Part shown: positions 32,837-43,449 of the stretch, in pieces
How the letters are laid out: each line of letters starts with the position of its first letter
How positions within the stretch are numbered: the first letter of the stretch is position 1
Assembly (NCBI RefSeq): GCF_032464895.1
Contig: NZ_JAWDIC010000003.1
Location: forward strand, 310,001-374,000
Source of the DNA: Phycicoccus sp. M110.8
GTDB lineage: Bacteria; Actinomycetota; Actinomycetes; Actinomycetales; Dermatophilaceae
Length of the DNA stretch: 64,000 bases
Reading direction: 5' to 3'
Notes under the pieces: model-generated
The model's input: the letters and a program-made list of their open reading frames with translations, nothing else
The model's database searches: none
Told to the model about the DNA's origin: nothing
Made by a program: the position numbers and the translations under genes

Positions 32837-35800
32837 TCAGCCCTTGAGGCCGGCCTCGACCGCGGCGATGATCCGCGGACGCAGCTCGGAGGCCGTGATG
32901 ACCGCGTCCACCGACCCGACCTGGACCGCGCGGTGGATGCTGTGCACCGAGTCGAACTCGGACGCGACCTGCCCGAGCTTCTCCGAGCGCACCGACGCGC
33001 GGACCTCGGCCAGCTCGGTCGCCAGCTCGGCCCGGCGCGCCCCCGTGGCGGCGTTGACGGCTGCCTCCAGCTCGGTGACCCGCGGGTCCGCCGCGGTCCG
33101 GGCGTCGACGTCGCGCGAGAACACCACGGCGGCCGCGGGCGCGCCGCCGATGACGGAGGCGAACGAGCCCTCGACCGCGAGCACGGTCATCCGCGGGTTG
33201 AGCGCCTTGGAGAACACCACGAACGCGCCACCGTGGTAGCGGCTGACGACGCAGAACACGATCGGCCCGTCGAAGTTGACGATGGCCCGGCCGATCTCGG
33301 CGCCGTACTCGAGCTGCAGCTGGCGCATCGACTCGGGCGACCCGTCGAAGCCGGACAGGTTGGCCAGCACGACGACCGGGCGGTTGCCCGACGCCGCGTT
33401 GATCGCGCGCGCCGTCTTCTTGGACGACCGCGGGAACAGCGTGCCCGCGGTGTACGTGTCGGGGCCGTCGGTGGGCGGGAAGCCGCGGCGGGCGACGTTC
33501 TTGGACTCGATCCCGATGAGGCACACGGGGATCCCGCCGAGGTGGGCGTCCTGGACCACCGAGGTCTCGGCGTCGGCCATGCCGGCCCAGCGCTCGAGGG
33601 TCGGGTGGTCCTGGTCGGCCACGGCCGCCATGAGCGTGCGGATGTCGAACGCCTTCTTGCGGTCGGGGTTGGTCGCCGCCGAGAAGATGTCGCCGATCGT
33701 CGTGAACCCGGAGTCCGGCAGCTCGTGCGGGAAGGCGGTGACGTCGCGGTCGACCGGGTCGGACGTCCTCGCCCGACGGGGGCCGTCCTCGCCCGGGTGG
33801 ACGTACGTGTGGTCGTAGTGCGCCAGCAGGATGTCGCGGGCTCCGGCGAGGTCGGGGGCCCAGTACTGCGCCTGCCCGTTGGGGCCCATGACGCGGTCGT
33901 ACCCGCCGATGCCGTGGTTGTCCTCCGCGCTGACGCCGCCGGAGAAGTCGAGCGACTGCTTGCCGGTGAGCACCATCGCGCTGTCCGGCGTCATGACCAG
34001 GATGCCCTTGGTGTGCATGAGCATCGTGGCCTCGGCGTTCCAGTACGGCTGGGCGCCCACGTTGATGCCGGCCACGACGATGTTGATCTCGCCGCCGTCC
34101 TGGGTGAACTCCACGATCCGCTTGAGCGCCCGGGCGACCCAGTCCATGTTCTCCGTGCCGGAGTCCATCGAGATGCGCGCACCGGCCGACAGGGCGAACC
34201 ACTCCACCGGCACCCCCATCTCCTGGGCGAGGTCGAGCGCGGCGATGACGCGCGTGCACTCCGCCTCGGAGACGGCCCCGAGCGCCTTGAGCGGGTCACC
34301 GCAGAGCAGGACACGCGTGACGCCCTCGGGGTAGCGCTCGGTGGGCGTCGTGATGACCCCGGCGATGATGCCGGCCTTGTTGAGGCCGTAGGGCCGGTCG
34401 ACCGGGACCAGCGAGCCCAGGTCGTCGAGGTCGTACTCGGTGGCGGTGCCACCCGGGCCCGCGATCATGGCCTGCAGCTCGTACGGGTACACGACGCCGC
34501 GGCGGCGGGCGCGGACGACCTTCTGCGCGTAGTCGTCGAGCGGCTTGAGCCGCTCGGTCGGCGGCTCCTCGACGGAGGTCACGACCCCGGAGCCGGGCTG
34601 GTAGTGGAACCGCGCGGCCAGGGGTGCGCTGGCGCCGTCCGGCGTGGCGATGCGGCCCTGGACGAGGACCTCCTCGATCCCGGCTCCGGCGGTGAGCGGC
34701 GAGATCTTCGCCTGCAGGGCGGTGAGCTGGTCGAGGTCGGCCTCGACCGGCGGCCAGATGTGCACCCACACGTGGTTCATGTCGAGGCGGGCACCGGCCG
34801 CGCCGCGGGCGGACCGGGCGCGGCGGATCGCCTCCAGGCAGTTGGCGATGGCGCGCTCCGCGTGCGGCAGGGCCGTGACCCGTCCCTGCTCGTCGCGCAC
34901 GACGGCCAGCTGGCGCACCTGCGCCAGCGCCACGAGCCGCCGGTCGTCGGAGTTGCCCGGGGCGACGCACTCGTAGAGCAGGACGTCGGCGGGCGCCTCG
35001 AGCCGCGTGACCTCGAAGTCGCGCAACCGCCACAGGTTGAGCCGGCGGCCCACCATGGGGTGCACCCCGCGCACCAGCCGGTCCTCGACCATCGTCCCGT
35101 CCTCGGGACGGAAGCTGAAGTACCCGACCGGGCGCCCGCTGCCGGGGCAGACTGCGACGGCGACGCGTCGCACCTCGCGGGCGAACGGCAGCCCGGTCAG
35201 CGCCGCGGCCAGCCGGGCCGACGCGTCCTCGGGCGACTCGGGCTCGTCCGGCCAGGCGAGGTAGAGGTCGACGACCCCCTCGTGCCCGGCCGCGCGCTCG
35301 GCGAGCTGCGCCGCGACGCCCTCGACGAGGGAGCTCCCCGACGCGAGCTCGTCGACCCGGCCCACGGTCGAGACCAGGCGCGTCGGCCGGCCGTCGAGGG
35401 CGTAGTCGGCCACGGCATACGGCCGCTCGCCGACCTCGACCTCGCGCGGGCCGCTGAGGTCGTGCTCGCGGTAGTGCCGCTTGACCAGCACGGCGAGCAT
35501 CGGCTCGCGGCGCGGGATCCCGCGCTCGAGCCGGTCGGAGAGGAACTGCACGATCTGCTCGGGGATGGCGGCGAGCTCGTCCATCCGCTTCGCCCGCTCC
35601 GGGCCCTCGGGCATGGCCTCGAGCGCGGCGACCTCGTCGGCGACCCCGCCGAGCACGCTGGCCCGGTCGGCGTCGACGAGCGGCTGGTCGAACCAGCGGA
35701 AGCGCACGCTGCGCGCGAGGTCGCCGATGACCGGGAAGCGCAGCTGCGTCGCGACGACGAGCCGGTCGAGCACCTCGCGGGCGGCGGCGTCGAGGGGCGG

Positions 35801-38347
35801 CTCGGGGCACGGCTCGGCGATCCAGCGCTGCAGCAGCGCGGTGCCGAGCGCCACCTCGGGGGCCGAGCGCTGCTGGGCGAGGAAGACGCGGAAGACGGCC
35901 TCCTCCAGCTCGGGTGTGCGGTCGAGGCCGTCGACGGCGTAGTGCCGCAGGACCTGCGACAGCTTGTGCCGGAAGTGCTCCGGCAGCGCCCCCCGCTCGA
36001 CGTCGAGGCTCTGCAGGTAGGTGTGGAAGTGCTCGCGCGGGCTGTGCACCCGGTGCTCGACGTGCTCGTCCTGGCCGGCCGGCCGGTTGCGGCTCAGCTC
36101 GGCGAAGTCCGCGAGGACCTCCAGCACCGCGACCTCCCGGCCGACCTGGGACTCGCCCCGGGCGGTGAGCTGGTCGCGGGCGGCGAGGTATGCCGCGAGC
36201 GCGTCGCCGCGCGGGTCGACGTCGTAGCCCAGCAGCATCGCGCACAGGTCGGCGCGGGTGCGGCGGGCGGCGACGTGCGGGTCGCCGTCGGAGCCGTCGC
36301 CGTCGGGCAGGTCGAGGTCGACCGCCTGATCCGCCGCCGGCGCGGCGGCGGCCTCGGCCCCGTCGTCGACGGGCTCGAGGCGCACGAGCGGCGCCCCGGT
36401 CTCGACCTGGCTTCCGGAGGAGACGAGCAGCTCCTTGACGCGCGCGGCGAACGGCGCGGGCAGGACGGTCTCCATCTTCATCGACTCGAGCACCAGCACC
36501 GGGGCGCCCTGGGCCACTTCGGACCCCACCGGCACCGGCGTGGCGACCACGAGCGCGGGCGCGGGCGAGCGCAGGACGCCGCCCTCGTCGCGGCTGACCC
36601 GGTGGGTGACGCCGTCCACCTCGACGAGCTGGACCGGGCCGTGCGTGGCGGTGGTGAGCCGGTGCAGGCGGCCGCCGACGGTGATCCGGCTGGTGTACTC
36701 GTCGAGCCGGTCGAGGTCGGCCGTGACGGTCTGCTCGCCGGCGGGGCCCGCGACGGTGACGCGGAAGCGGTGCGGCCCGGTGCGCCAGACCGTGACCTTG
36801 TACGCCGTGCCGCGCAGCTTGAGGTCGATGGCCCGGCCGGTGCGGTGCTGCACCTGCGGGCGGCCGCCGCGCGCGGTCTCGAGCAGGCGGGTGCGCTCGA
36901 CGCCCTCCTCGTCCTCGTACGCCTCGATGCCGGCGGCCACCAGCGCGATGCCGGAGTGCCGGTGGGAGACCAGCCGGCCCTCGGCGCGGACGCGGTCGAT
37001 CCAGCCGGTGTCGGCCGTGCCGTCGACGACCTCGGGCTGGTCGAGCAGGTCGAGGATGAACGACTTGTTGGTGGCGCCGCCCTCGATGACGACGGTGGTC
37101 TCGGCCATCGCCCGCCGCAGCCGGGCCAGGGCCTCGTCACGGTCGGCGCCGACCGCGATGATCTTGGCGATCATCGAGTCGAAGTCGGCGGGGATCGAGT
37201 CCCCTTCTCCCACACCGGTGTCCACGCGGATGCCGGGACCCGCCGGCAGGGTGAGCAGCGCGATGCGGCCCGGCGAGGGGGCGAAGTCGCGGTCGGGGTC
37301 CTCGGCGTTGAGCCGGGCCTCGACGGCGTGCCCGACCTCGACCGGGCGCTCCCCCTCGAGCCGGCCGCCGGACGCGACGTGGATCTGCAGCTTGACCAGG
37401 TCGGTGTCGGTCGTGGCCTCGGTGATGGGGTGCTCCACCTGGAGCCGGGTGTTGACCTCGAGGAACGCGAAGAACTTCTCACCCGGGTGGTAGAGGAACT
37501 CGACGGTGCCGGCACCGGCATACCCGACGGCGATGGCGAGCCGCTCGGCGGCGGCCTTGACCTCCGCCACCTGCTCGGGGCCGAGGACGGGCGAGGAGGA
37601 CTCCTCGATGACCTTCTGGTTGCGACGCTGCACCGAGCAGTCGCGGACCCCGAGCGCCCACGCCGTGCCCTGCCCGTCGGCGATGACCTGGACCTCGACG
37701 TGGCGCGCGCCGGTGACCAGCTTCTCGAGGAAGACGACCCCGGAACCGAACGCGCGCTGCGCCTCGTCGCGGGTGCGCTCGTAGGCGTCGGTGAGGTCGG
37801 CGTCGGAGTCGACCCGGCGGATGCCGCGCCCGCCACCGCCCGCGGTCGCCTTGAGCATGAGGGGGTAGCCGATGCGCGCGGCTGCGGCCTTGGCGTCCTC
37901 GAGGGTGTCGACGCCCCCGCGGCTCCACGGCGCGACCGGGACCCCGACCTCCTCGGCGATGAGCTTGGAGCCGATCTTGTCGCCGAGCTTGCGCATCGCC
38001 TCCGGGCTCGGGCCGATGAAGGTCACGCCGATCCGCTCGCACAGCGCGGCGAAGTCGGGGTGCTCCGCGACGAAGCCCCAGCCGACCCAGGCCGCGTCGG
38101 CGCCGGTCTCGAGCAGCGCCCGCTCGAGCACGGCGTAGTCGAGGTAGGGCCGGTTCGCGGCCGGGCCGAGGTCGTACGCGGAGTCGGCCTCGCGCACGAA
38201 CATCGCCCGCTTCTCGCCCTCGGTGTGCAGCGCCACGGTCGCGATCCGGTGGCCGCCCTCGCCCGCCTGGGCGTTGAGGTCGCGCACCGCGTGGATGAGA
38301 CGCATGGCGGCCTCGCCGCGGTTGACGATGGCGATGCGCGAGAACAT
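32837..38347 (-). CDS. Single-chain multidomain acyl-CoA (acetyl-/propionyl-CoA) carboxylase
   Basis: The protein has 1836 residues with all carboxylase activities in one chain. Biotin carboxylase occupies about 1-460 (SRIAIVNRGEAAMRLIHAV, KATAGGGGRGIRRV, VEFLYHPGEKFFAFLEVNTR). A biotin-carrier domain has ESMKMETV with the biotinyl Lys at about 624. A central region of about 540 residues follows, then beta and alpha carboxyltransferase halves (from about 1250: GYDRVMGPNGQAQYWAPDL, GGAFVVFSKALNPRM). This BC-BCCP-central-CT order resembles eukaryotic acetyl-CoA carboxylase rather than split bacterial subunits. It would carboxylate acetyl- or longer acyl-CoA with ATP and bicarbonate. No biotin ligase gene is nearby. 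It stands alone, divergent from the photolyase gene. Confidence 0.92.
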   Translation of the reverse strand: MFSRIAIVNRGEAAMRLIHAVRDLNAQAGEGGHRIATVALHTEGEKRAMFVREADSAYDLGPAANRPYLDYAVLERALLETGADAAWVGWGFVAEHPDFAALCERIGVTFIGPSPEAMRKLGDKIGSKLIAEEVGVPVAPWSRGGVDTLEDAKAAAARIGYPLMLKATAGGGGRGIRRVDSDADLTDAYERTRDEAQRAFGSGVVFLEKLVTGARHVEVQVIADGQGTAWALGVRDCSVQRRNQKVIEESSSPVLGPEQVAEVKAAAERLAIAVGYAGAGTVEFLYHPGEKFFAFLEVNTRLQVEHPITEATTDTDLVKLQIHVASGGRLEGERPVEVGHAVEARLNAEDPDRDFAPSPGRIALLTLPAGPGIRVDTGVGEGDSIPADFDSMIAKIIAVGADRDEALARLRRAMAETTVVIEGGATNKSFILDLLDQPEVVDGTADTGWIDRVRAEGRLVSHRHSGIALVAAGIEAYEDEEGVERTRLLETARGGRPQVQHRTGRAIDLKLRGTAYKVTVWRTGPHRFRVTVAGPAGEQTVTADLDRLDEYTSRITVGGRLHRLTTATHGPVQLVEVDGVTHRVSRDEGGVLRSPAPALVVATPVPVGSEVAQGAPVLVLESMKMETVLPAPFAARVKELLVSSGSQVETGAPLVRLEPVDDGAEAAAAPAADQAVDLDLPDGDGSDGDPHVAARRTRADLCAMLLGYDVDPRGDALAAYLAARDQLTARGESQVGREVAVLEVLADFAELSRNRPAGQDEHVEHRVHSPREHFHTYLQSLDVERGALPEHFRHKLSQVLRHYAVDGLDRTPELEEAVFRVFLAQQRSAPEVALGTALLQRWIAEPCPEPPLDAAAREVLDRLVVATQLRFPVIGDLARSVRFRWFDQPLVDADRASVLGGVADEVAALEAMPEGPERAKRMDELAAIPEQIVQFLSDRLERGIPRREPMLAVLVKRHYREHDLSGPREVEVGERPYAVADYALDGRPTRLVSTVGRVDELASGSSLVEGVAAQLAERAAGHEGVVDLYLAWPDEPESPEDASARLAAALTGLPFAREVRRVAVAVCPGSGRPVGYFSFRPEDGTMVEDRLVRGVHPMVGRRLNLWRLRDFEVTRLEAPADVLLYECVAPGNSDDRRLVALAQVRQLAVVRDEQGRVTALPHAERAIANCLEAIRRARSARGAAGARLDMNHVWVHIWPPVEADLDQLTALQAKISPLTAGAGIEEVLVQGRIATPDGASAPLAARFHYQPGSGVVTSVEEPPTERLKPLDDYAQKVVRARRRGVVYPYELQAMIAGPGGTATEYDLDDLGSLVPVDRPYGLNKAGIIAGVITTPTERYPEGVTRVLLCGDPLKALGAVSEAECTRVIAALDLAQEMGVPVEWFALSAGARISMDSGTENMDWVARALKRIVEFTQDGGEINIVVAGINVGAQPYWNAEATMLMHTKGILVMTPDSAMVLTGKQSLDFSGGVSAEDNHGIGGYDRVMGPNGQAQYWAPDLAGARDILLAHYDHTYVHPGEDGPRRARTSDPVDRDVTAFPHELPDSGFTTIGDIFSAATNPDRKKAFDIRTLMAAVADQDHPTLERWAGMADAETSVVQDAHLGGIPVCLIGIESKNVARRGFPPTDGPDTYTAGTLFPRSSKKTARAINAASGNRPVVVLANLSGFDGSPESMRQLQLEYGAEIGRAIVNFDGPIVFCVVSRYHGGAFVVFSKALNPRMTVLAVEGSFASVIGGAPAAAVVFSRDVDARTAADPRVTELEAAVNAATGARRAELATELAEVRASVRSEKLGQVASEFDSVHSIHRAVQVGSVDAVITASELRPRIIAAVEAGLKG

Positions 38348-38486
38348 CGGGCGGGCCTCCCAGGTGCAGGTGACGGACGACGCGACCCGTCCGCCCGGGG
38401 GCGTGGGTCACCGCCCGAGCCTGCCACCCCGGGACGGTGACTCGCGAGTAATGCGGGGTCCGGTGTGCCCACCTAGGGTGGACGGC

Positions 38487-39863
38487 ATGGCACGGGCCGG
38501 CTCGATCCTCTGGTTGCGCAGGGACCTGCGCCGCGGCGACCTGCCCGCGCTGGGGGCAGCCGCCGAGGCCGCCGGGGACTCCTCGGTGCTCGTCCTCTAC
38601 GTGCTGGACCCGAAGCTGTGGAAGGGGGCCGGCGACGCCCGCCGGGCCTGGTTGGCCGCCACGCTCGAGGCGGCGAACGAGGCGTACGACGGCCGGCTCT
38701 GCCTGCTGCGCGGCAACCCGCGGACCGTGGTCCCGCGCGTGGCGAGGGAGACCGGCGCCGGCTCGGTGCACGTGTCGCGCGAGACGACCCCCGCCGGGCG
38801 GCGACGCGACGAGGCGGTGCGCGAGAAGCTGGAGAAGGCAGGGGTCGGCTGGGTCGAGACCGGCACGCCGTATGCCGTGGGGCCGGGTTCGGTCGTCAAC
38901 GGCAGCGGCACGGAGTACAAGGTCTTCACGCCGTTCTCCAAGGCCTGGCGCGACCACGGCTGGCCCGACCCCGCGACCGAGCCGCGCGGGCTCACCCTGT
39001 CCCGGGTCGCGTCCGACGACGACGCGTGGAAGGAGGTCCGGGCGGCGCTGCGCGGCAAGGACCTGCCCGAGCTGCCCGACGCCGGGGAGCAGGCGGCCCT
39101 GCGCCGGTGGCACGACTTCCTCGACGACGGGCTCGCCGACTACGGCGACCGCCGCGACCGGGCCGACCTGCCCGGCGTCTCCCGGATGTCGGCCTACCTC
39201 AAGATCGGCGCCATCCACCCCCGGACGATGCTCAAGGACCTGGCTGGACGACGCGGCAAGGGCGCCGAGACCTACCGCACCGAGCTGTGCTGGCGCGAGT
39301 TCTACGCCGACGTCCTGTGGCGGCACCCGACGTCGGCCTGGGTGGACCTGCGCCCCGCCCTGAAGGGCATGACGTACGAGTCGCACGAGGACCTCGTCGA
39401 CGCGTGGCGGGAGGGGCGCACCGGCTACCCGGTCGTCGACGCCGCGATGCGCCAGCTGCTCACCGAGGGCTGGATGCACAACCGGATGCGGATGGTGACG
39501 GCCAGCTTCCTCACCAAGGACCTGCACGTGTGGTGGCCGGTGGGGGCCCGGCACTTCCTCGACCACCTCATCGACGGCGACATCGCCTCGAACAACCACG
39601 GCTGGCAGTGGGTCGCCGGCACGGGCACCGACGCCTCCCCCTACTTCCGGGTGTTCAACCCGGTCACCCAGGGCCAGCGGTACGACCCCGACGGCGACTA
39701 CGTCCGCCGCTACGTCCCCGAGCTCGCGCACCTGCCCGGCAAGGCGGTGCACGAGCCGTGGAAGGCCGCCGACGGCTACGAGCACGGCTACCCCGAGCGC
39801 ATCGTCGACCACGCGGAGGAGCGGCTCGAGGCCCTGCGCCGCTACGAGGCCACCCGGTCGTGA
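38487..39863 (+). CDS. phr: Deoxyribodipyrimidine photolyase (cryptochrome/photolyase family)
   Basis: The protein has 458 residues from the ATG at 38487. The antenna domain begins SILWLRRDLRRGDLPALGAA. The FAD-binding catalytic domain holds YRTELCWREFYADVLWRHP, MHNRMRMVTASFLTKDLHVW and DIASNNHGWQWVAGTGTDAS followed by PYFRVFNPVTQGQRYDPDG, matching class I CPD photolyases. It would repair UV-induced pyrimidine dimers using blue light. It starts a five-gene run with tiny gaps or overlaps (CPBP, reductase-TspO fusion, SRPBCC). Confidence 0.95.
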   Translation: MARAGSILWLRRDLRRGDLPALGAAAEAAGDSSVLVLYVLDPKLWKGAGDARRAWLAATLEAANEAYDGRLCLLRGNPRTVVPRVARETGAGSVHVSRETTPAGRRRDEAVREKLEKAGVGWVETGTPYAVGPGSVVNGSGTEYKVFTPFSKAWRDHGWPDPATEPRGLTLSRVASDDDAWKEVRAALRGKDLPELPDAGEQAALRRWHDFLDDGLADYGDRRDRADLPGVSRMSAYLKIGAIHPRTMLKDLAGRRGKGAETYRTELCWREFYADVLWRHPTSAWVDLRPALKGMTYESHEDLVDAWREGRTGYPVVDAAMRQLLTEGWMHNRMRMVTASFLTKDLHVWWPVGARHFLDHLIDGDIASNNHGWQWVAGTGTDASPYFRVFNPVTQGQRYDPDGDYVRRYVPELAHLPGKAVHEPWKAADGYEHGYPERIVDHAEERLEALRRYEATRS

Positions 39864-39867
39864 CGTC

Positions 39868-40596
39868 GTGATCAACCCGGTGGCGGAGATCCGCGCGTTC
39901 GTCCGGGCCGCGCTCGTCCAGCCCGTGCCCCGCGACCACACCGAGACCGATGCCGCGTTCCACCGGCGGCGGGTCGTCGCCGTGGTCACGCTCGTCGTCG
40001 GGACGGTGGTGCTGGCGCTCGCCCTGCGGATCGAGCCCGGCAACGTGCTGTTCTACCCGGCGTCGTTCGGCCTCGCCGTCGTCTGGGCGGTCGGGGCCCT
40101 GCTGTCCGGACCGCTCCACCTCGGGCACGCCCGCACCCGCGCGGGGGGGTACGACGCCAGGCCGGTCGTGCAGTCCCTCGCCCTGGGCGCCCTGCTGCTC
40201 GGCGTCTTCCTGGCCGGCGGCCTCCTCGTGGCCCGCATCCCGTTCCTGCGCGACCCGGTCAACCAGCTGCTCGACCACGCCCGGCTCGGCTCGCTCGCCC
40301 TCGTCGCGGTCATCACGGCGGTCAACGGCATCGCCGAGGAGCTCTACTTCCGCGGCGCCCTCTACGCCGCGGTCGGCCGCAAGCACGCCGTCCTCGTCAC
40401 CACGGTCGTCTACGCGCTGACCACGGTCGGCGCCGGCATACCCCTGCTCGTCCTCGCCGCGGCCGCGCTCGGCCTGATCGTGGCCCTCCAGCGCCGGGTC
40501 ACCGGCGGGGTGCTGGGCCCGATGATCACCCACCTCACCTGGTCGCTGGGGATGCTCTTCCTGCTCCCCCACGTCCTCGGGACAGGAGCCCCATGA
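39868..40596 (+). CDS. CPBP-family intramembrane metalloprotease
   Basis: The protein has 242 residues from the GTG at 39868, four bases after the photolyase stop. About six hydrophobic helices are visible. The CPBP (Abi/CAAX-protease-like) signature E-E-x3-R appears as GIAEELYFRGALYAAVG near residue 155, and a conserved His in GPMITHLTWSLGMLF near 220. Members cleave or process membrane-linked peptides and prenylated proteins; targets here are unknown. Its stop overlaps the next ATG. Confidence 0.88.
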   Translation: MINPVAEIRAFVRAALVQPVPRDHTETDAAFHRRRVVAVVTLVVGTVVLALALRIEPGNVLFYPASFGLAVVWAVGALLSGPLHLGHARTRAGGYDARPVVQSLALGALLLGVFLAGGLLVARIPFLRDPVNQLLDHARLGSLALVAVITAVNGIAEELYFRGALYAAVGRKHAVLVTTVVYALTTVGAGIPLLVLAAAALGLIVALQRRVTGGVLGPMITHLTWSLGMLFLLPHVLGTGAP

Positions 40597-41993
40597 CCAC
40601 CGTCCTCGTCACCGGAGCCACCGGCTACATCGGCGGGCAGCTCGTGCCCGTGCTGCTCGACCGCGGCCACCACGTGCGCGTGCTGACCCGCTCGCGCAAG
40701 GGACTCGCCGGCCGGGACTGGGCCGACCGGGTGGAGGTCGCCGAGGGCGACGCCTCCCGCGTCGAGGACGTGCGGCGGGCGCTCGAGGGGGTCGAGGTCG
40801 CGTACTACCTGCTGCACTCGATGGACGGCGGTGGCTCGTTCATCGAGCGCGACCGGTCGATGGCGCGGACCTTCGCCGAGGCCGCCGGCGAGGCGGGCGT
40901 GGGACGCGTCGTCTACCTCGGCGGGCTGCACCCGGAGGGCGAGCTGTCCGACCACCTCGCCTCGCGGGTCGAGGTCGGCGAGACGTTCCTGCGCGGGCCG
41001 GTGCCGGCCGTCGTCCTGCAGGCGGGTGTCGTGCTCGGGAACGGGTCGGCGTCGTTCGACATGCTGCGCCACCTCACCGAGCGGCTCCCGGCGATGGTCG
41101 CCCCCAAGTGGGTCGGCAACCGGATCCAGCCGATCGCCGTGGCCGACGTCGTGCACTACCTCGCCGGGGCGGTGGACCTGCCCGAGGGCACCAACCGCAC
41201 CTTCGACCTCGGCGGCCCGGAGGTCATGACGTATGCCGAGATGATGCAGCGGTACGCCTCGGTGGTGGGCCTGCGGCCGCGGCACGTCGTGAGCGTGCCG
41301 GTCCTCACCCCCCGGCTGGCCGGGCTGTGGGTCGACGTGGTGACGCCGATCCCCGCCGGCATCGCGCGGCCCCTCGTCGGCAGCCTCGTGCACGAGGCGG
41401 TGTGCCGCGAGGACGACATCCTCGAGGTCCTCGGCCCGCCCCCGGGCGGGCGCACCGGGTTCGACGAGGCGGTCCTGGACGCCGTCGCCGACGTGGACCC
41501 GCACCGGTGGAGCCGCACGCTGGCGCGCACCTCCGCCGTGGTCGGCGCCGCCGCCGTGGTGGGGTCGCTGCTCACCGACCCCACGTCGCGGTGGTACCGC
41601 CGGCTCGACAAGCCGTCCTGGCAGCCGCCGCCCGGGGCGTTCCCCGTGGTCTGGACCGCCCTCTACGCGACGACGGCCGTCGTCACGGCGCGTGCCAGCT
41701 CCGAGCTGGCCGAGCGTGGCGACACCGCGGCCGCCCAGGACCTGGAGCGCGCCCTGGCCGCCAACATGGTCCTCAACGCGGGGTGGTCCGGCCTGTTCTT
41801 CCGCGCGCACCGGCTGGGCCTGGCCACGGCCGGCGCCGCCGCCCTCGCCGCGAGCAGCGCGGACCTGGCGCGGCGGGTCGGCACCACCGGAAAGGGCAAG
41901 GCCGCCGGCATCGGCGCGTATGCCGCGTGGTGCGGGTTCGCGACCGTCCTCACGGCCGCCATCGCCCGGCGCAACCCGAGGGCGGGACGATGA
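40593..41993 (+). CDS. NAD(P)-binding reductase-like domain fused to a TspO/MBR membrane domain
   Basis: The protein has 466 residues in two parts. Residues 1-310 are an atypical SDR/NmrA-like Rossmann domain (TTVLVTGATGYIGGQLVPVL, RVVYLGGLHPEGELS). Residues 312-466 are a TspO/MBR domain: a first helix near 312-328, then RWYRRLDKPSWQPPPGAF and VVWTALYATTAVVT, NMVLNAGWSGLFFRAHRLGL, and a last helix near 435-458. TspO proteins bind porphyrins and other tetrapyrroles or sterols and respond to light and oxygen. One continuous frame with no stop joins the halves. It is coupled by ATGA to the CPBP gene and the SRPBCC gene. Confidence 0.87.
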   Translation: MTTVLVTGATGYIGGQLVPVLLDRGHHVRVLTRSRKGLAGRDWADRVEVAEGDASRVEDVRRALEGVEVAYYLLHSMDGGGSFIERDRSMARTFAEAAGEAGVGRVVYLGGLHPEGELSDHLASRVEVGETFLRGPVPAVVLQAGVVLGNGSASFDMLRHLTERLPAMVAPKWVGNRIQPIAVADVVHYLAGAVDLPEGTNRTFDLGGPEVMTYAEMMQRYASVVGLRPRHVVSVPVLTPRLAGLWVDVVTPIPAGIARPLVGSLVHEAVCREDDILEVLGPPPGGRTGFDEAVLDAVADVDPHRWSRTLARTSAVVGAAAVVGSLLTDPTSRWYRRLDKPSWQPPPGAFPVVWTALYATTAVVTARASSELAERGDTAAAQDLERALAANMVLNAGWSGLFFRAHRLGLATAGAAALAASSADLARRVGTTGKGKAAGIGAYAAWCGFATVLTAAIARRNPRAGR

Positions 41994-42451
41994 CGAGCTT
42001 CGACGCGCGCAAGATGTCCAAGGCGGTCGTGCCCTACACCCGCCAGCAGGTCTGGGAGGTGCTGTCCGACCCCTCGGCCGTCGCCCGCCTCACGCCGATG
42101 GTGCGCGGCATCGAGGGCGCGGGCGACCTGTGGCGCTGGCGCCTGGCGCCGATCGAGGTCCTCGGCAAGGACATCGGGCTCGCGTTCACCGAGCGGATGG
42201 AGTTCACCGAGCCCGAGCGGATCGAGTTCACCCACGAGCCCGACGGCCACGAGCGCGCCGGCGTCAACGGCACGTACACGCTCACCACGGCCGGCCAGGG
42301 CACGCGGCTGGCGATCGACCTGGCCGTCGAGGTCGACCTGCCGTTCCCGCGGCTGGCCCGCCCGGCGGTCACGACGTCGATGCAGGCAGTGCTCGTCGCG
42401 ATGGGCGCCGGGTTCGCCCGGCAGCTCGACCGGCACCTGGCGGGCTCCTAG
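41990..42451 (+). CDS. SRPBCC-family protein
   Basis: The protein has 153 residues from an ATG overlapping the preceding stop. It has a START/polyketide-cyclase-like pattern, KAVVPYTRQQVWEVLSDPSA near the start and a C-terminal helix QAVLVAMGAGFARQLDRHL, giving a lipid- or pigment-sized cavity. Its ligand is unknown. Its TAG and the TAG of the converging reductase gene share the palindrome CTAG, so the two genes overlap by four bases. Confidence 0.82.
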   Translation: MTSFDARKMSKAVVPYTRQQVWEVLSDPSAVARLTPMVRGIEGAGDLWRWRLAPIEVLGKDIGLAFTERMEFTEPERIEFTHEPDGHERAGVNGTYTLTTAGQGTRLAIDLAVEVDLPFPRLARPAVTTSMQAVLVAMGAGFARQLDRHLAGS

Positions 42452-43449
42452 GCCGGCGCCCGACCGGGCGGCCTGGCCCACGCCGGGTCGGTGGGCAGCG
42501 GCCCCAGCGGGTCGACCGCCCCGGCACCGCTCGCGCCGGAACCGGACAAGTTCGGGGCCGCCAGCGCCCTGGCAATGGCGTCGGCCACCGGCAGCGGTCG
42601 CGAGCCGGGTCCCAGGAGGTCCTGCACGTAGTCCTCGTCACGGCAGACCATGTCGTGGCGCAGGCTCGCCACCAGCGACCGGACGGTCGAGGCCGGGACG
42701 TCCGTGAACAGCGGGGCGACGCGCGCGACGAACGCCGTGGGGAGCAGGGCCGGCACCTGGAGCGCGCGCCCCCCTGCCAGCCGCGCGTAGAGGCGCAGCA
42801 ACGCGGCATACGACATGCGCTCACCGCTGCCCACGTCGTAGGTGCGGCCGGCCCCGGTCGCGGTCAGCGCGCCCGCGAGCGCAGCCACGACGTCGCTCGC
42901 GGCGACCGGCTCGACGGCGCTGCGCATCCACGACGGCACGACCTGCACCGGCAGCCGGCGGCTCAGCTGGCGCATGATCTCGAACGACGTCGACCCCGCT
43001 CCCACGACCATCGCGGCGCGCAGGGCCCACGTCGGCACCCCGCTGTCACCGAAGACCTGCTCGACCTCGAGCCGCGAGCGCAGGTGGGGTGACAGGTCAC
43101 CCTCCGGGACGTCCGGGACCAGGCCGCCGAGGTAGACGATGCGGCCCACACGGGCCCGCACCGCGGCGTGCGCCGCGTTGTAGGCGCCCTCGCGGTCGGC
43201 GGTGGTGAAGTCCGGGCCGGCCAGGCCGTGCACGAGGTAGACCAGCGCGTCCGACCCGGCGACGGCGTCCCGGGCCGCGGCGCGGTCGGCGACGTCGAGC
43301 CCGGCCACGCGCACGGCACCGGCCCAGGGGAACCGCCGCGCCCGGGCCGGGTCGGTGAACGTGGCGGTGACCTCGTGGCCGTCCGCGAGCAGCGCGGGGA
43401 CGAGCCGGCTGCCGATGTACCCGCCCGCGCCCATCACGGTCACGCGCAC
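42448..43449 (-). CDS. NAD(P)-binding (NmrA/atypical SDR-like) protein
   Basis: The protein has 333 residues from the GTG at 43449. A Rossmann start (RVTVMGAGGYIGSRLVPALL) is followed by GRIVYLGGLVPDVPEGDLSPHLRSRLEVEQ, SRRLPVQVVPSWMRSAVEPVA and ASDVVAALAG. It aligns by eye along its length with residues 1-300 of the reductase-TspO fusion (compare YLGGLHPEGELSDHLASRVE), so the two are paralogues converging on the SRPBCC gene. The C-terminal 30 residues are Gly/Ala/Pro-rich. The reaction is unknown. Confidence 0.82.
   Translation of the reverse strand: MRVTVMGAGGYIGSRLVPALLADGHEVTATFTDPARARRFPWAGAVRVAGLDVADRAAARDAVAGSDALVYLVHGLAGPDFTTADREGAYNAAHAAVRARVGRIVYLGGLVPDVPEGDLSPHLRSRLEVEQVFGDSGVPTWALRAAMVVGAGSTSFEIMRQLSRRLPVQVVPSWMRSAVEPVAASDVVAALAGALTATGAGRTYDVGSGERMSYAALLRLYARLAGGRALQVPALLPTAFVARVAPLFTDVPASTVRSLVASLRHDMVCRDEDYVQDLLGPGSRPLPVADAIARALAAPNLSGSGASGAGAVDPLGPLPTDPAWARPPGRAPA

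Follow-up and report, generated by a model that had tools for sequence, protein, structure and literature searches.

A single gene of Phycicoccus sp. M110.8, located at 40593..41993 (+) in the 64,000-nucleotide stretch analyzed here (the window; contig NZ_JAWDIC010000003.1, positions 310,001 to 374,000), encodes a 466-amino-acid protein in which an NmrA-like, atypical short-chain dehydrogenase/reductase (SDR) domain is joined to a TspO/MBR domain. Judged from its sequence and that of its relatives, the fusion is most likely a membrane-tethered NADPH-binding module of a light-stress response. In our leading interpretation, to which we assign a probability of about 0.5, it acts against light-driven oxidative damage, with the NADPH-loaded SDR half gating or reducing for a ligand bound by TspO. 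The role of bacterial TspO has long been argued over. Within its family the fusion occurs in 29 of the 53 genus codes with its ligand pocket intact, which provides TspO with an NADPH-type SDR as physical partner and with a light-stress setting, both of which are directly testable.

Domain structure and ligand pocket of the fusion protein

The reading frame ran from the ATG at 40593 to the TGA at 41993, and the protein had full-length matches within the family. The N-terminal NmrA/atypical-SDR domain (residues 1–300; 40593..41492, +) was identified by the Pfam families NAD_binding_10 (residues 8–116, E = 5.7e-17) and NmrA (residues 3–108, E = 2.9e-15), by motif counts in 28 aligned fusions and by an NDUFA9-like fold. 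The C-terminal TspO/MBR domain (residues 305–460; 41505..41972, +) matched TspO_MBR (PF03073) at residues 316–457 with an E-value of 1.8e-29 (102.8 bits against a cut-off of 24), covering positions 4–143 of the 145 in the profile, and it was the sole PF03073 match in the Phycicoccus sp. M110.8 genome. The first-pass annotation, made from the sequence of the window alone, had described one frame joining an NmrA/SDR-like domain to a complete TspO, and the Pfam matches and the intact 466-amino-acid frame bore this out. An AlphaFold2 model built from the 28 aligned fusions was confident across both domains (pLDDT 92.1, pTM 0.86). The model showed mixed strands and helices up to about residue 300, followed by five long helices (305–327, 349–374, 378–404, 408–430 and 434–460), the five predicted transmembrane helices of the TspO/MBR family. 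In the sequence, the SDR half leads directly into helix 1 of the complete TspO domain, and a membrane location of the protein is supported by both sequence and model.

Y32, P42, W51, N87, W138, A142 and L145 of BcTSPO have been reported as crucial for binding of the drug PK11195 (PMC7956637). When these positions were mapped by hand through an alignment with 4ryi (chain number minus 28), all seven letters matched the published list, and their equivalents in the fusion were Y335, P345, W354, N395, W446, A450 and L453. Each was invariant in 28/28 fusions, and the TspO ligand pocket, as compared at the residues listed for PK11195, looks functional. A tetrapyrrole is proposed as the ligand because such ligands are known from other TspO proteins. 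Light-induced breakdown of protoporphyrin IX has been reported for some TspO proteins (cited in PMC8243069), and our guess by analogy is that the fusion protein might do the same. The mean net charges of the TspO half in the 28 fusions were +0.8 for loop 1, −1.7 for loop 2, +2.4 for loop 3, +3.6 for loop 4 and +2.8 for the C-terminus; a cytosolic SDR half would place the Arg-rich C-terminus and loop 3 outside, contrary to the positive-inside rule.

Motifs and fold of the SDR half

The TGxxGxxG motif near the N-terminus and Arg33 were both invariant in 28/28 fusions. An arginine at this type of position usually denotes a preference for NADPH. No Y/K column pair four apart, as in the YxxxK motif, was present in three or more of the 28 fusion rows, and H121xxxR125 was invariant in all of them; we infer that HxxxR stands in for YxxxK. 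Overall, 67 of 300 columns were invariant in the SDR half, compared with 23 of 153 in the TspO half. When Foldseek's own top 1000 matches were re-scored with VIA-align, NDUFA9 of complex I headed the list (Z 29.5, root-mean-square deviation 2.8, 297 aligned residues, 18% identity). NDUFA9 has been described as an SDR that binds NADPH at the membrane surface; it lies above the quinone tunnel and may regulate access to it (PMC8762328). The sequence and fold neighbors of the SDR half also included the aromatic-substrate reductases SimC7 and triphenylmethane reductase. The motifs and the fold suggest that the SDR half sits at the membrane surface as a nucleotide-loaded module, although likeness of fold shows no activity. 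The earlier idea of a light- or tetrapyrrole-responsive membrane redox protein stood in part: sequence and model favored the membrane and the intact pocket, whereas the redox element is hypothetical, with no conserved YxxxK in the SDR half.

Distribution of the fusion

Full-length matches to the fusion were found in at least 60 of the 149 genomes of the window's family, representing 29 of 53 genus codes. The 59 other family genomes matched with identities of 54–76%. A script check showed an open frame over both halves in 32/32 loci, including that of the window, and residues 300–330 were gapless in all 28 aligned fusions. With a strong TspO domain defined as one scoring at least 95 bits, the 149 genomes contained 74, of which 61 were fused (in 60 genomes, one of them with two) and 12 were unfused. 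The remaining one came from G029 (G and L numbers denote genomes and loci), a 58% complete draft; there the SDR and TspO halves (L146), close to where a 6.9-kb contig ends, did not share a frame, and this break may be an error or a genuine split.

A sequencing frameshift joining two separate genes, which the first-pass annotation had raised for positions 41520–41560 and which the usual occurrence of TspO as a separate protein and the out-of-frame halves in G029 might favor, has a negligible probability and is already refuted by the family-wide full-length matches, the 32 open loci and the gapless junction. An assembly artefact was ruled out on the same grounds, and a chance long frame in GC-rich DNA was ruled out by the Pfam matches and conserved columns in both halves. 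The fusion that had been sought in relatives was thus present. The statement that TspO is normally free-standing held for the phylum sample outside the family; within the family, most strong TspO domains were fused (61/74).

In a phylum-wide sample of 396 genomes, only three had a full-length match to the fusion, all of the window's family, whereas some TspO match was present in 75. In the samples searched, the fusion is limited to one family and is lineage-specific. Among plasmid records, 86 had a match, and in none of these (0/86) did it cover 80% of the fusion query. Four further genomes (G481, G251, G445 and G515) had long frames around TspO and were rejected as fusions when the frames gave no SDR-profile match. 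Named carriers were Terrabacter tumescens, Humibacillus sp. DSM 29435 and Arsenicicoccus cauae, the latter two assigned to Intrasporangiaceae by NCBI; Terrabacter and Humibacillus could be linked to the family searched, which GTDB calls Dermatophilaceae. The scan of named genomes covered the best 80 loci, three of them fused, and is not a census of carriers. One genome (G009) had two different SDR-TspO fusions (L153 and L171), with a CPBP neighbor at each.

Light-stress genes near the fusion in relatives

Neighboring genes were counted in 20 fused loci, each spanning about 19 kb and together representing 18 genus codes. Genes near the fusion included CPBP in 16 loci, a MerR-family regulator with a B12-binding domain (MerR-B12) in 7, crtB in 6 and photolyase in 6, and amine oxidase, DUF1365 and CMAS genes were found in 4. 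The number of MerR-B12 genes expected by chance in 20 such stretches was about 0.2, as estimated from the two present in the window's own genome of 4.1 Mb. SRPBCC genes adjoined the MerR-B12 gene in 5 of the 20 loci. Terrabacter tumescens (L061) carried, in a row, the regulator, SRPBCC, amine oxidase, DUF1365, CMAS, photolyase, CPBP and SDR-TspO genes.

Pfam analysis of four neighboring regulators placed MerR_1 and B12-binding_2 above the cut-off in all four, and the second B12 domain, PF02310, above it in one and below it in two, with no match in the fourth. The Wx9EH motif, reported to be crucial for the activity of the CarH photoreceptor (PMC9304148), was present in all eight regulators checked, two of which came from the window's genome. 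The light-linked gene setting was stronger than first thought, with CPBP frequent, photolyase recurrent, and CarH/LitR-like regulators, crt genes of the carotenoid pathway and the furan-fatty-acid-type amine oxidase–DUF1365–CMAS set present in some relatives. The label "light-responsive" would rest on this gene context. Similar repeats, such as TTGTCCAAGGTT or CCTTTGACAG, were seen by eye before regulator or amine oxidase genes at six loci (L061, L067, L167, L168, L180 and L206); repeats of this type are possible operators.

The apparent operon in the window

In the window, the photolyase gene (38478..39863, +; FAD_binding_7, E = 1.6e-80) is followed after 4 nucleotides by a gene for a CPBP (Rce1-like) intramembrane protease-like protein (39868..40596, +; Rce1-like, E = 8.5e-12), then by the fusion gene and an SRPBCC gene (41990..42451, +; Polyketide_cyc2, E = 5.4e-9). 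These Pfam matches confirmed the neighbors named in the first-pass annotation. The sequence ATGA was common to the CPBP stop and the fusion start (40593–40596), and again to the fusion stop and the SRPBCC start (41990–41993). Because of these overlaps on both sides and the photolyase two genes upstream, the four genes look like one apparent operon with photolyase as its first gene. Convergent with the operon, at 42448..43449 (−), is another SDR gene from this wider family; its product lacks TspO and is 42% identical to the SDR half. A similar SDR was also seen beside the fusion at L011.

Upstream of photolyase lies a 19-bp element, GGTGACTCGCGAGTAATGC, containing the palindrome ACTCGCGAGT (38436..38454, +). 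Among 227 loci, its 14-bp core was also found before photolyase at L162 and at no other. The element sits between photolyase and a divergent gene, which it may serve instead; this is a single frame of 1836 amino acids (32837–38347, −) that reads like a single-chain biotin carboxylase-carboxyltransferase. A scan of 11 regions for inverted repeats gave no candidate shared by four or more, a test ill-suited to CarH sites, which are direct repeats in the literature.

Unfused SDR and TspO genes and the origin of the fusion

SDR and TspO genes were associated in some genomes even when unfused. In G069 (L149) and G025 (L148), SDR, CPBP, photolyase and a separate TspO were same-strand neighbors. A separate TspO adjoined an SDR-DUF2867 gene in G005 (L145), and in G100 (L147) an SDR gene was followed by a larger, distant TspO-like gene, the ends of the two overlapping. 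This distant TspO-like family, of about 266–321 amino acids, was seen next to or near an SDR at L147 (2599–3399, −) and L224 (6879–7844, +), in genomes without the SDR-TspO fusion.

The SDR half is common to longer SDR proteins of many Actinomycetota, whose C-terminus was shown by Pfam to be DUF2867 for L145 and was taken to be so from length in the others. In the SDR tree, the fused rows fell in one clade (Shimodaira–Hasegawa approximate likelihood ratio 100; quick method, no bootstrap), which also contained L146, a split case, and five TspO-less SDRs. The TspO tree placed the fused rows and the split cases L146 and L156 (43 rows) on one side of a branch with support 60/92, set apart from the phylum's more distant free TspO proteins; free TspO proteins of families f5 and f7 were close to them. 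A single origin of the fused TspO is favored, with low branch support. The trees suggest that DUF2867 was replaced once by TspO in an ancestor and that TspO was then lost in several lineages.

We examined the C-termini of 20 TspO-less SDR loci of the family. By eye, the SDR ended in a single hydrophobic helix in G137, G072, G081, G048, G105, G045, G133 and G107, and in a short soluble tail in G147, G121, G068, G103, G120 and others. One-helix ends were seen in most of L208 (G072), L209 (G137) and L210–L216, L212 being doubtful. In G137 and G072, both of the window's genus, the SDR persisted, its C-terminus short and hydrophobic, and the genome gave no TspO match. The G137 SDR terminated in ARRNPRSS, as did the intact fusion L008, and its first TspO helix seemed to continue straight into the C-terminal tail of TspO, as though a deletion had removed what lies between them. 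G121, with its soluble-tailed SDR, had a separate TspO elsewhere (L156) that grouped with the fused ones. Two TspO-less SDRs of Nocardioides (L065 and L066), each followed by a CPBP gene, fell inside the fused-SDR clade, which possibly reflects horizontal transfer.

Proposed working of the fusion and alternative explanations

In the proposed mechanism, the NADPH-bound SDR half would lie on the cytoplasmic face of the membrane and cover the TspO pocket, which would hold a photosensitizing tetrapyrrole or another hydrophobic ligand within the membrane. The NADPH-loaded SDR would act as a gate or reductant for this ligand, much as NDUFA9 is placed over the quinone tunnel of complex I, and porphyrin binding or breakdown would be coupled to cellular reducing power in light stress.

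Several results weigh against this interpretation. Among the 20 fused loci, 13 had no MerR-B12 match, 14 no photolyase and 4 no CPBP. The D/ExHxxG motif, sought by a simple pattern only, had no match starting with D or E in the eight regulators; because no clear motif was present and PF02310 passed in one of four regulators, their binding of B12 is unsure. The window genome's own cluster of MerR-B12, amine oxidase, DUF1365 and two CMAS genes was on the same contig but about 229 kb away, PF00494 (phytoene synthase) was unmatched in this genome, and visual inspection of the region before the window's photolyase showed no CarH-like repeat. Light control of the window's operon is plausible but only indirect, because of the distance of that cluster and the missing PF00494 match. 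By Foldseek E-value, gox2253, UDP-galactose 4-epimerase and SimC7 outranked NDUFA9. In the unfused sets of G069 and G025, the SDRs were only distantly related (41–44% identity) and formed their own clade. Furthermore, some family members retained the SDR half after losing TspO, and therefore the SDR does something without TspO.

The alternatives considered below overlap with one another and with the light-stress reading, and their probabilities need not sum to one. The main one, which we regard as possible at roughly half the weight of the light-stress reading, is that TspO is chiefly a membrane anchor, the SDR being the working part and TspO chemistry incidental. It would account for the loss of TspO in several lineages, for the several TspO-less SDRs ending in one hydrophobic helix and for the better conservation of the SDR half (67/300 versus 23/153 invariant columns), and SDRs with a short soluble tail also occur among the TspO-less loci. 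However, the seven invariant pocket residues go beyond what an anchor needs, separate TspO genes stand beside the SDR gene at L145, L148 and L149, and the soluble-tailed SDR forms manage without any anchor.

Somewhat less probable is a substrate other than a tetrapyrrole, namely a membrane lipid or isoprenoid (a furan fatty acid, carotenoid or quinone), with the SDR as enzyme and TspO supplying the ligand. The CMAS, amine oxidase and DUF1365 genes in 4/20 fused loci, crtB in 6/20, and the presence of SimC7 and triphenylmethane reductase among the sequence and fold neighbors fit such a substrate, whereas the SDR half lacks the YxxxK pair, the window's genome lacks a PF00494 match, and porphyrins are the best-known TspO ligands (PMC8243069). 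Equally unlikely in our estimate, the SDR half would merely hold NADPH and sense redox state, and TspO would signal to a regulatory network while itself carrying out no chemistry. The NDUFA9-like fold is consistent with this, NDUFA9 itself being a membrane-surface NADPH-binding SDR (PMC8762328), and Rhodobacter TspO is reported to influence gene regulation (PMC4237140); however, no partner protein is known and Pfam found no signaling domain in the fusion.

A bolder form of the light-stress reading is more doubtful still: the fusion would be a redox-coupled TspO, in which a photosensitizing tetrapyrrole in the TspO pocket is reduced under the drive or gating of SDR-bound NADPH, and TspO would be one half of a light-protection enzyme. 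If it were true, the unfused SDR, CPBP, photolyase and TspO neighbors would represent this machine as separate components, and in other organisms some free-standing TspO proteins may have an overlooked SDR partner.

Comparison with known systems

Both halves of the fusion belong to known families, and no SDR-TspO fusion appeared among the open-licence titles listed in the literature searches. The fusion resembles TspO/MBR proteins such as BcTspO and RsTspO in its complete domain, five predicted helices, seven pocket residues, and Pfam and PDB matches, but differs from them in its additional N-terminal Rossmann domain of 300 residues. It shares its SDR half (about 53–61% identity) with the SDR-DUF2867 proteins of Actinomycetota, which carry DUF2867 where the fusion has TspO. 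Some of these lie beside photolyases: of the best 80 named relatives, which included 3 fusions, 23 had a photolyase nearby and 16 had MerR-B12. NDUFA9, the 39-kDa subunit of complex I, had the top structural Z with the SDR half and is likewise a membrane-surface NADPH-binding SDR (PMC8762328), but it is a separate subunit of a large complex, 18% identical and without TspO.

In Pseudomonas mendocina, a LitR-type gene is reported together with phrB, an SDR, an FAD oxidoreductase and ufaM, of which phrB and ufaM are light-induced (PMC9758184). Matching gene types, the amine oxidase–DUF1365–CMAS set among them, were found beside the fusion in some relatives, a likeness by gene type, whereas the available part of that report names no TspO in the LitR/CarH cluster. 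The phrB-tspO-mmpL2 genes of Mycobacterium kansasii are reported as light-induced (PMC9861118). There, too, photolyase adjoins TspO, but TspO is a separate gene and the excerpt of the report mentions no SDR. For Pseudomonas, STRING predictions named PhrB and an NAD-dependent epimerase among the partners of TspO; according to a later review, there was no report of a direct interaction (PMC4237140, PMC8243069). Genomic evidence for this link is added by the fusion and its unfused counterparts, although the STRING predictions may themselves rest on similar contexts.

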